From NCBI GenBank assembly GCA_903840355.1, contig CAIMFJ010000008.1, forward strand, positions 1-64,000: a stretch of DNA of 64,000 nt, written 5' to 3'. The DNA is from an uncultured Opitutia bacterium. GTDB lineage: Bacteria > Verrucomicrobiota > Verrucomicrobiia > Opitutales > UBA953. The position numbers were made by a program, and so were the translations under genes. Below the pieces are notes generated by a model. That model was not told the origin of the DNA. It made no database searches and saw only the letters and a program-made list of their open reading frames with translations. Below, in pieces: positions 28,256 through 31,045 of this stretch. The first letter of the stretch is position 1. Every line of letters begins with the position of its first letter.

Positions 28256-29274
28256 CGGCCAATCGTGTGTTCGAGGAACGCTAACACCTTCGACGTGATT
28301 TCGGGGGTGTTGCTGTGTTCTGTTTGAACCACTTCTTGACCCTGCTCCCAGCGCACCGCCGTCGAAGTCCATCCCTGACCCTTCGGACGTAAATCAAACG
28401 TGTGCACGCCGCCTTTCACGATGAGGAATTCGTGCGGAATCTTCGCAGCACGCAAAGCGGCCTCTAAGTGATGTGACTCGCTAATATCCACCGTGGTATC
28501 GGCATCACCGTGTAAAATTAAAACCGGCGGTGCCCCTGCTTTCGCGTGCGTCGCAGGCATGAACGCTTGCTCAGCATTGGGTCCCGCTTGAGCCAGCGTG
28601 GCTTTGCCGTGCTTGTTAGACTCCGCGACCCCGTAAAAATCTAATACGGCCGAAACCTGTGAACTGTATTTAGCCTTAGGGTCGCCGCCTAACTCAGGTT
28701 GCTCAGGCGCCAAGCCGACCATTAACGCTAAGTAACCACCCGCCGAGCCGCCGGCGACAGCGATGCGATGTTCATCAAGATTGAGCTCCTTGGCATGCTC
28801 ACGCATCCAACGAATCGCTTGGCGACAATCTGCAATATTCTGCGGCCAAACCGCGGGGTTGCTCTTCGTCGATAAGACGTAGTTACAACTCACCACCACA
28901 TACCCCGCACGAGCGAGATCGGCACTCACACTCGTGCTACGATATTCAGCCTTATCGCCGCCCGTAAAACCACCGCCGTGAATAAAAAGTACGCCGGGAC
29001 GCGGCGTGGTCGCGGACGTGTTGGGTAAATATAAATCCAACTTCTCTTTGCGACCCGTCCCTAAAAACTCCACGTCGCTTAAACGAAAAACGGGCTTAGG
29101 CATCACCTCGGCAGAAGGCTTCGCCCGCGCCGCCTCGGCCCACACTTTAAGATTTTTTAAATCCGGGGTTTGGTCCGCGGGGGCGATTTCGTAGACCCGC
29201 AATTTAACATTATCGACCGCCCCTAAGGCAGCCGTGAGTAAACCTAAAAGAAAACTGAGCTTAAGATAACGCAT
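28252..29274 (-). CDS. Secreted alpha/beta-hydrolase (esterase/lipase)
   Basis: The 340-residue protein starts at ATG 29274 with a signal peptide (MRYLKLSFLLGLLTAALGAV). The HGGG oxyanion motif is in FIHGGGFTGG, the nucleophile is in GGSAGGYLAL, and the Asp of the triad is in LHGDADTTVD. The His is in GGVHTFDL. It fits hormone-sensitive-lipase-like or acetyl-xylan esterase-like enzymes, and may deacetylate plant or algal polymers. It overlaps the end of cimA by 14 bases, so the two may be transcribed together despite unrelated roles. Confidence 0.8.
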   Translation of the reverse strand: MRYLKLSFLLGLLTAALGAVDNVKLRVYEIAPADQTPDLKNLKVWAEAARAKPSAEVMPKPVFRLSDVEFLGTGRKEKLDLYLPNTSATTPRPGVLFIHGGGFTGGDKAEYRSTSVSADLARAGYVVVSCNYVLSTKSNPAVWPQNIADCRQAIRWMREHAKELNLDEHRIAVAGGSAGGYLALMVGLAPEQPELGGDPKAKYSSQVSAVLDFYGVAESNKHGKATLAQAGPNAEQAFMPATHAKAGAPPVLILHGDADTTVDISESHHLEAALRAAKIPHEFLIVKGGVHTFDLRPKGQGWTSTAVRWEQGQEVVQTEHSNTPEITSKVLAFLEHTIGR

Positions 29275-30817
29275 AAGCATAACCATCTGTAATCGCCCGG
29301 AGCGAGGCTTCGACCAGATTTTCGCTCACGCCCACCGTACCCCAATTCATTTTCCCATTAGAAGAACGGATGACGACACGCGTCTTGGCTGCAGTACCTT
29401 CGCCGCCGCCCAAAATACGTACTTTATAATCCACCAGCGAAACTTTGGCGAGACGCGGGAAAGACTTCACCAAGGCCTGACGCAAGGCTTGGTCAAGAGC
29501 ATGCACGGGACCATCCCCTTCGGCGACCGTTAGGGTTTCCTCGTTGTCGATTCGCACGCGCACCACGGCTTCGCAATACGCCCCTTCTTTACCACCGCGG
29601 GCGGTGACATGGTAGGAAATGACTTCGAAGGGAGCCGTCTTGGATTTACCAAGGTGACGACGCAAAAGCAGGGCCAAGGACGCCTCGGCGTCTTCAAAAC
29701 TCCAACCCTCGTGCTCGAGTTTCTTCAACTCATCCAACGCCGTGCTGGTCGCTGGGGAATCGCGATCCAAATCAATGCCTAAAGCTTGAGCTTTTAAAAC
29801 GATGTTACTCCGACCGGACTGATCGCTCACCAATACCGTGCGCTCATTACCCACGGTAGCGGGATCGATGTGTTCGTAGGCCGCCGAGAATTTACGCACC
29901 GCATCCACGTGGGTACCACCTTTGTGGGCAAACGCAGCGGTACCAACCCAGGGACGACGAGGATCAGGGGCCAAGTTGGCCACGCCATCCACGAAACGCG
30001 ACAGGGCGGATAAACCGCGGAGCGACGTGCTGGGGACGCACTTCCAGCCAAACTTTAATTGGGCACAAGGAATGACGGCGGTGAGGTCGCAATTACCCGT
30101 GCGCTCACCAATACCATTCACCGTACCTTGAACATGCGAGGCACCTGCTTCCAATGAAGCCAAGGCATTCGCCAAGCCCAGACCGGCGTCGTCGTGGGTA
30201 TGGATGCCCACCGGCACCTTTAACACCGCGAGAGCGGCCCGCGTGGCAGCGGCAACGGTCGCAGGCAACGAGCCACCATTCGTATCGCAAAGCACTACCC
30301 GATCGGCCCCACCCTCCACCGCAGCCAACATCGTAGCCAAGGCGTACTCGGGGTCTTCTTTCCAACCATCAATCGCGTGTTCGCAATCGTAGATCACTTC
30401 ACGGCGGTGGGATTTCAAGTAAGCCACCGTGTCGCGAATCATCGCTAAATTTTCTTCGGGCGAGCAACGGAGCACTTCGCGCACGTGCAGGGCGGAAGTT
30501 TTACCGTAAATCGTAACCACGGGCGTCTCTACTTCGAGCAAGCCACGTACTTGAGCATCTTCGGAGGCCTTCACCCCTTTACGGCGCGTCGAACCGAAGG
30601 CCGCCAACTTGGCGTTTTTAAACTTAAGCTTCTTCGCCTGGGCAAAGAACTCCACGTCCCGGGGATTGGAGCCTGGCCAGCCACCTTCAATGTAAGTCAT
30701 TCCGAAACGCTCGAGCTCGGCGGCAATACGCAGCTTGTCCTCGACCGTAAAGTGAATGCCCTGCCCCTGTGAGCCATCACGGAGGGTGGTGTCATAGATT
30801 TCGATGGAGCGTGCCAT
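29261..30817 (-). CDS. cimA: (R)-citramalate synthase
   Basis: It condenses pyruvate with acetyl-CoA to citramalate, the first step of the threonine-independent isoleucine pathway. The 518-residue protein has the HMGL-like TIM barrel (YDTTLRDGSQGQG metal site, GIHTHDDAGLGLANA, GTVNGIGERTGN). A C-terminal regulatory domain of LeuA type, from about residue 380, is the likely isoleucine feedback site. The sequence fits the long CimA class better than 2-isopropylmalate synthase. It is preceded by a leader ORF with four Ile codons and alternative hairpins (30857-30949), indicating attenuation. Confidence 0.93.
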   Translation of the reverse strand: MARSIEIYDTTLRDGSQGQGIHFTVEDKLRIAAELERFGMTYIEGGWPGSNPRDVEFFAQAKKLKFKNAKLAAFGSTRRKGVKASEDAQVRGLLEVETPVVTIYGKTSALHVREVLRCSPEENLAMIRDTVAYLKSHRREVIYDCEHAIDGWKEDPEYALATMLAAVEGGADRVVLCDTNGGSLPATVAAATRAALAVLKVPVGIHTHDDAGLGLANALASLEAGASHVQGTVNGIGERTGNCDLTAVIPCAQLKFGWKCVPSTSLRGLSALSRFVDGVANLAPDPRRPWVGTAAFAHKGGTHVDAVRKFSAAYEHIDPATVGNERTVLVSDQSGRSNIVLKAQALGIDLDRDSPATSTALDELKKLEHEGWSFEDAEASLALLLRRHLGKSKTAPFEVISYHVTARGGKEGAYCEAVVRVRIDNEETLTVAEGDGPVHALDQALRQALVKSFPRLAKVSLVDYKVRILGGGEGTAAKTRVVIRSSNGKMNWGTVGVSENLVEASLRAITDGYAYALS

Positions 30818-30856
30818 GGTGTGTAGGGTGGAGAAAGGTGGGTAAAAGGGAAGGTT

Positions 30857-30877
30857 CGTTCCGAAGTCCGCGGAACG
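30857..30877 (-). terminator. Putative attenuator terminator hairpin of cimA
   Basis: CGTTCCG and CGGAACG pair around a 7-base loop; on the minus strand a pyrimidine-rich run ending in TTTT follows (about 30844-30852). The U-tract is interrupted, so on its own it is weak. Its upstream arm is shared with the alternative hairpin at 30873-30903, so the two cannot form together. Confidence 0.55.
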
Positions 30878-30903
30878 GTGAAACGCTGGGAAGCGGGCCG
30901 TTC
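30873..30903 (-). promoter_or_regulatory. Putative antiterminator hairpin of cimA
   Basis: GAACGG at 30898-30903 pairs with CCGTTC at 30873-30878. A nested CGCT/AGCG hairpin lies in its loop. This pairing uses the bases needed for the terminator at 30857-30877. Another hairpin, CGGGC at 30916-30920 with GCCCG at 30906-30910, overlaps the leader codons and stop. It could keep the antiterminator from forming when the ribosome moves on. This is the classical three-state attenuator layout. Confidence 0.5.
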
Positions 30904-30910
30904 TGCGGGC

Positions 30911-30949
30911 TTACAGCCCGATAATAATAATATCCGACTCCGTCATCAT
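30911..30949 (-). CDS. Leader peptide with four Ile codons, upstream of cimA
   Basis: A 12-codon ORF MMTESDIIIIGL ends at TAA 30911, 93 bases before cimA. It reads ATT ATT ATT ATC in a row. An in-frame longer version starts at ATG 31003 (30 codons), with another ATG at 30994. The Ile run is followed directly by a hairpin that covers the Gly-Leu-stop codons, and then by competing antiterminator and terminator hairpins. The enzyme downstream makes isoleucine. By analogy with ilv and leu leaders, ribosome stalling at scarce Ile-tRNA would favour transcription into cimA. The peptide's translation is inferred. Confidence 0.65.
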   Translation of the reverse strand: MMTESDIIIIGL

Positions 30950-31016
30950 GGCACGACCCACCGACAAGGCGAGGGAGGTCGAAGACTGGACCATGGGTTT
31001 CATGAGTGGAGGCAAT

Positions 31017-31045
31017 ACTTCAAACGGCGGGCGGAGGGGAGTCAA
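31017..31045 (-). promoter_or_regulatory. Candidate promoter for the cimA leader
   Basis: A TTGACT -35-like hexamer (31040-31045) and a weak TGAAGT -10-like hexamer (31017-31022) are separated by 17 bases. Transcription would begin near 31010, just upstream of the leader ORF. The -10 match is poor, so confidence is low. Confidence 0.25.

Follow-up and report, generated by a model that had tools for sequence, protein, structure and literature searches.

Is isoleucine synthesis governed at citramalate synthase (cimA) by a leader peptide that senses isoleucine supply? The question is raised by a stretch of 64,000 nucleotides from an uncultured Opitutia bacterium (contig CAIMFJ010000008.1, positions 1 to 64,000; here called the window), in which a short open reading frame (ORF) with consecutive isoleucine codons lies upstream of cimA. 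The gene encodes the entry to the threonine-independent isoleucine route, which is found in many bacteria and is also used in engineered production. To our knowledge, no leader-peptide control of cimA is known. An isoleucine-codon attenuator of the leader-peptide type is nevertheless the reading that an earlier note on this DNA had put forward. Such ribosome-mediated control, with charged tRNA-Ile as the signal to which cimA responds, is highly likely given its conservation in 45 loci, promoter-like elements upstream of the ORF and relatives that combine an isoleucine leader with a classical terminator.

The window protein scores 658 bits against its NCBIfam model, for which the cut-off is 450. 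The genome (2.27 Mb, 99.3% complete) encodes three PF00291 (PALP, PLP family) enzymes, namely cysteine synthase, tryptophan synthase beta and threonine synthase, and no threonine deaminase (IlvA) was found among them. CimA is therefore probably the sole route to isoleucine in this organism. Leaders of the cimA kind do not precede leuA, a separate gene of the same genome, and ilvC directly follows another coding region of the same orientation, with no space for such a leader.

Leader ORF and alternative helices

Both reading frames lie on the minus strand, where the leader ORF (31003–30911) is followed by cimA (30817–29261).

29261..30817, minus strand: cimA, citramalate synthase, 518 aa (NCBIfam TIGR00977, equivalog)
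30911..31003, minus strand: leader peptide ORF of 30 codons, MKPMVQSSTSLALSVGRAMMTESDIIIIGL followed by stop
30920..30931, minus strand: control codons ATT ATT ATT ATC (Ile x4), followed by GGG CTG TAA

The peptide ends in D-I-I-I-I-G-L-stop. Of the 485 short ATG-initiated ORFs that the two strands of the window contain, this is the only one with at least four isoleucines in the last seven codons. The leader RNA holds the following pairing elements, in transcript order:

30906..30920, minus strand: hairpin 1, CGGGC-TGTAA-GCCCG, spanning the last Ile codon and the stop codon (pause or protector hairpin); 99.5% of cells paired in 41 sequences
30898..30903, minus strand: segment a, GAACGG; a:b has 98.8% of cells paired
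30884..30895, minus strand: inner hairpin of the antiterminator, CGCT-TCCC-AGCG
30871..30878, minus strand: segment b, CCGTTCCG, common to both alternative helices and nearly invariant in 41 sequences
30857..30863, minus strand: segment c, CGGAACG; paired with b (b:c), it presumably forms the terminator or off-state hairpin, with 96.3% of cells paired

Hairpin 1 has a fold energy of -8.6 kcal/mol. Helix a:b pairs GAACGG (30903–30898) with CCGTTC (30878–30873) and reaches -9.7 kcal/mol including the inner hairpin, while b:c pairs CGTTCCG (30877–30871) with CGGAACG (30863–30857) at -8.4 kcal/mol. The two helices share bases in b and are thus mutually exclusive. The 211-nt leader as a whole folds better than shuffled sequences (z = -3.0; 1 of 200 shuffles was as good). 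The earlier note had described a short ORF ending with ATT ATT ATT ATC together with hairpins, two of them mutually exclusive; the codon run is exact at 30931–30920, the hairpin elements were all recovered on the minus strand where they had been placed, and the overlap in b bears out the exclusivity.

Conservation within the genus

The named close relatives are mostly Opitutales or Opitutae metagenome-assembled genomes (MAGs) and assemblies, for instance UBA953, UBA957 and Opitutae bacterium BS6. cimA is detected in most genomes of the window's genus. All 45 congeneric loci with sequence upstream of cimA, the window and one locus whose sequence ends before the leader start codon (L013) included, carry the leader with its isoleucine-rich tail and hairpins before the gene. 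The recurring layout consists of a promoter (in most), the tail, the stop-codon hairpin and the exclusive a:b and b:c helices. A typical peptide reads M(E/K)..AQSST...GRAIIPAII(T)IIGL followed by stop, leader lengths are 27, 29, 30 or 33 codons, and every distinct leader has 3–6 isoleucines in its last 10 codons (mean 4.6). A covariance model built from 41 distinct leaders matches 44 of 373 genomes of the order, at a single place each and always within the genus; those genomes of the genus that are not matched have no cimA match or only a cut-off cimA. No further copies of the element were found elsewhere in the window genome.

An alignment of relatives, suggested at the outset as a check, shows that isoleucine codons and stems are kept in all 45 loci and that two helices carry compensatory changes. 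In hairpin 1, a C-G pair is swapped to G-C in L077 and L078. In the inner hairpin, 87.8% of cells are paired and four of the five pairs show changes on both sides somewhere in the genus. The observed covariation score was reached by none of 500 shuffles, in data that come from related sequences of one genus with few independent compensatory events. When the partners are slid by 1–3 columns, pairing falls from 95% to 48% or less. Helices a:b and b:c show no double changes because b hardly varies, as any strand that has to pair with two others should; substitutions in a and c are mostly tolerated as G-U pairs, including a U-A to U-G change of b:c in eight sequences. In the alignment, L065 and L070 have a shifted c arm, which by eye can still pair with b.

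The sister genus g5 (L071–L074 and L081) has CimA proteins 76–79% identical and a different upstream region. The leader is absent there, which counts against the attenuation reading.

Promoter and ribosome geometry

Two promoter-like elements precede the leader ORF:

31040..31045, minus strand: -35 element TTGACT, present in nearly all congeneric leaders and 17 nt before the -10 element in most
31017..31022, minus strand: -10 element TGAAGT (TGRAGT in most congeners), at conserved spacing in most species

The distance from the -10 element (TGRAGT or a near match) to the leader ATG is 10–13 nt in most species of the genus, and transcription is expected to start near 31010, some nucleotides ahead of the ORF. 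A start downstream of 30911, which had been named as incompatible with a leader peptide, is not what these conserved elements indicate, as they lie upstream of the ORF instead.

The stop codon is separated from segment a by 7–8 nt in every aligned congeneric sequence. A ribosome usually covers about 16 nt downstream of its P site. With this footprint, a ribosome on the isoleucine codons would block hairpin 1 and leave a free, whereas one at the stop codon would cover a, so that the leader spacing provides the geometry that helix switching requires. The following sequence of events is proposed. Transcription would begin a few bases before the ORF of 27–33 codons. When Ile-tRNA is scarce, the ribosome would stall at the isoleucine codons and cover hairpin 1, segment a would remain free to pair with b, and cimA would be expressed. 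When isoleucine is plentiful, the ribosome would reach the stop codon, 7–8 nt before a, and cover that segment; b would then pair with c and cimA would be shut off. The leader would thus very probably let the cell make CimA only when isoleucine is low.

In a classical attenuator, a biosynthetic gene is preceded by a short ORF that is co-transcribed with it; consecutive codons of the ORF specify the product of the pathway, exclusive helices are set by ribosome position, and a hairpin adjoins a T-run. At the sequence level the window has the ORF with promoter-like elements, an isoleucine run before a gene that leads to isoleucine in a genome where no IlvA was found, and two helices that compete for b at a fitting distance from the stop codon. 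The hairpin with an adjoining T-run is absent from the cimA leader of the window and of its genus and occurs in 29 of 87 relatives of another family.

Isoleucine leaders beyond the genus

In this other Opitutales family, 87 distinct cimA upstream regions were compared with their reverse strands as control. Isoleucine-dense leader ORFs are found in 33 of the 87 (9 in reverse), T-run terminators in 34 (2 in reverse) and a leader followed by such a terminator in 29 (none in reverse). In L183, for example, the leader VKSLPIIAAIITIARSPGQVDAA and its stop codon precede a terminator of the form ACCCCGGGC-TTACC-GCTCGGGGT-TTTTTG; the leader of L204 is MSPLPSISIAIIIELQPGSGDSA, followed by stop. By eye, an element resembling GCCCGGGC, located within the leader past the isoleucine codons, can pair with the 5' arm of the terminator and would form an antiterminator. 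Like those of the window's genus, the cimA leaders of other Opitutales, such as L183, L204, L257 and L315, combine the same gene, an isoleucine-dense ORF and alternative pairing partners. Unlike them, they end in CCCCGGGC/GCCCGGGG-type terminators with T-runs, and the peptide usually runs on past the isoleucines with a PG-containing tail. Outside the isoleucine-rich tail, the leader peptides of other families are unrelated to those of the window's genus.

The same architecture is seen in an Acidobacteria MAG (L168), where the leader MFAQIGIIIIAISSPPPGG ends at its stop codon and a 13-bp terminator followed by TTTTGTTT precedes cimA. The remaining Opitutales families yield nine isoleucine-dense leaders on the forward and two on the reverse strand, including MKRTTIVEIIEAIRIS (L217) and MNFLITAGQTKSISAEIISIII (L188), each followed by stop; no terminators were recognised downstream of them. 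A weak survey outside the order gave 15 leader ORFs forward and 11 reverse.

Other short ORFs upstream of cimA were also observed. In another order of the class, L343, L346 and L347 share a conserved putative leader, MASQ(P/S)AIFxIRIIxGLLCA followed by stop, after which L343 and L346 have a hairpin resembling a terminator. ORFs whose last residues before the stop codon are IxRIR or GRIR occur in L190, L191, L250, L251, L199, L233 and L244, with a CCCGGG..CCGGG hairpin after the ORF in the first four, and possibly represent a further type of cimA leader.

The off state

In the window's genus the off state may act on cimA in one of several ways. The interruption of the U-tract had been called the weakest part of the earlier proposal, and rightly so: a terminator scan of the window leader detects no intrinsic terminator, and no T-run adjoins b:c in any of the 41 aligned congeneric sequences. 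The nearest T-run in the window, CTTTTAC, lies about 10 nt past b:c, and most species of the genus have TTT some 8–10 nt past the helix. A standard intrinsic terminator is thus unsupported in this genus. The lack of an adjoining T-run also counts against the attenuation reading, as T-run terminators are used by the window organism elsewhere, being found at 7 of 48 window genes and also upstream of leuA. The segment between b:c and cimA is of a different kind:

30818..30856, minus strand: C/T-rich tract without G that reaches the cimA start, without a Shine-Dalgarno sequence; conserved in 41 congeners

Three candidates are considered for the off state, namely an intrinsic terminator poor in T, an action of Rho at the C-rich tract, and translational control. 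Premature transcription termination at or after b:c, probably with Rho on the tract or at an atypical T-poor terminator, is favoured with low confidence, given the intrinsic terminators that relatives have at cimA.

Within this favoured model, the untranslated tract might recruit Rho when isoleucine is present, with b:c pausing RNA polymerase and no intrinsic terminator involved; we regard this version as a sizeable possibility that nonetheless falls short of being probable. It is consistent with the composition of the tract, which in 41 congeners averages 36.7 nt in length, C making up 53% and G 2.8%, compared with 23% G at the start regions of 21 further genes of the window that have free DNA upstream, and with a precedent proposed for the terminator-less cys leaders of Mycobacterium (PMC1262725). 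The tract is short (21–49 nt), however, and the start region of leuA is likewise C/T-rich, which would fit a role in translation instead. Generic pyrimidine-rich start regions as the cause of the tract were considered and are not seen at the 21 other genes, leuA being similar though. As a separate observation, the Shine-Dalgarno signal is missing from the window in general, with GGAG, GAGG or AGGA in 3 of 48 start regions and 4.05 in shuffles.

It is rather unlikely that the same isoleucine-sensing leader acts on translation, with the cimA start hidden in the off-state RNA, for example by GGUCGUGCCAU in the leader codons pairing to AUGGCACG at this start, until a stalled ribosome uncovers it. 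The missing T-run behind b:c would suit this arrangement, and the window contains a perfect 9-bp match (CGTGCCATG/CATGGCACG) that is part of the predicted minimum-energy fold; matches of 8–9 bp between leader and start recur in many congeners. In roughly 40% of the distinct leaders, however, the match is only 5–7 bp, without compensating changes, so hiding of the start codon by the leader codons, however strong in the window, is not conserved across the genus. Simple occlusion by b:c itself is disfavoured because the helix lies 21–49 nt from the ATG, a distance that is too large and varies too much for the start to be covered, and the T-run terminators of relatives at the same position likewise speak for termination.

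The remaining explanations dispense with attenuation. That the ORF encodes a functional microprotein is very improbable, even though conservation within the genus extends to the ORF and to some of its residues (QS, GRA). Among the 23 distinct 29-codon leaders, the synonymous share of single-base codon differences is 0.31 against 0.30 expected; among the 14 distinct 27-codon leaders it is 0.52 against 0.27, and codons 23–25 stay isoleucine while switching between ATT and ATC. The constraint falls on the isoleucine codons and the RNA stems, and the leaders of other families are unrelated beyond the isoleucine-rich tail. A peptide body weakly constrained in the larger (29-codon) set, next to strongly constrained control codons, fits a leader peptide better than a microprotein. 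Isoleucine codons and hairpins that arose by chance, with no regulatory role, can practically be dismissed, since beyond the small size of the elements nothing favours this view, and an ORF unique among 485 is conserved in 45 loci.

Relation to known attenuators

The ilvGMEDA and ilvBN operons of Escherichia coli are controlled by the leader-peptide attenuators ilvL and ivbL. A leader-peptide attenuator also controls ilvBNC in Corynebacterium (PMC11857589, PMC10272879). The cimA leader resembles these systems in its short ORF with branched-chain amino acid codons, its alternative hairpins and the control of a pathway whose product is sensed. The known attenuators target acetolactate synthase, whereas the present one precedes cimA, has a control run of isoleucine codons only, lacks in the window's genus a T-run after the last hairpin, and is found in the phylum Verrucomicrobiota. 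The cys-operon leaders of Mycobacterium have no intrinsic terminator, and a pyrimidine-rich tract has been proposed as their Rho site (PMC1262725). As in the window's genus, their control codons adjoin the stop codon; alternative hairpins and pyrimidine tract are conserved in the cimA leaders, whereas neither is reported as conserved for the mycobacterial ones (PMC1262725).

A 2010 survey knew leader-peptide systems from Proteobacteria and Actinobacteria and added Firmicutes (PMC2965389). No documented case was found for Verrucomicrobiota, nor was a description of cimA attenuation found in the open-access literature searched, and neither cimA nor Opitutales is mentioned in the main text of two noncoding-RNA surveys and one terminator survey. 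The covariance models of Rfam 15 (T-box, Leu, His and Trp leaders and others) gave no match to the window leader region up to E = 1, and 13 related loci yielded nothing beyond a tRNA and one sub-threshold match. Ribosome-mediated isoleucine attenuation of cimA is very likely and would work in the manner of the ilv leaders, lacking only the T-run of the formal intrinsic-terminator type; it was not found in Rfam or the open-access papers searched.

The finding adds a probable leader-peptide control of cimA with comparative support. We would give even odds to the broader view that isoleucine attenuation of cimA is widespread in Verrucomicrobiota as a so far undescribed way of controlling the citramalate pathway, and that the window's genus does without an intrinsic terminator and acts through the C-rich, G-free tract in a Rho-dependent or translational manner. 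If true, the attenuator of this genus would have preserved its switching helices and would depart from related ones in its mode of output. Gene and signal are shared between one family that has a classical terminator and another that lacks the T-run, a natural comparison by which the evolution of attenuator outputs becomes testable.

A minor observation concerns the peptides of L240, L168 and L237, in which PP(P)G closely follows the isoleucine run. This is reminiscent of polyproline stalling sites and of E. coli ilvL, which contains IIIPPCG.
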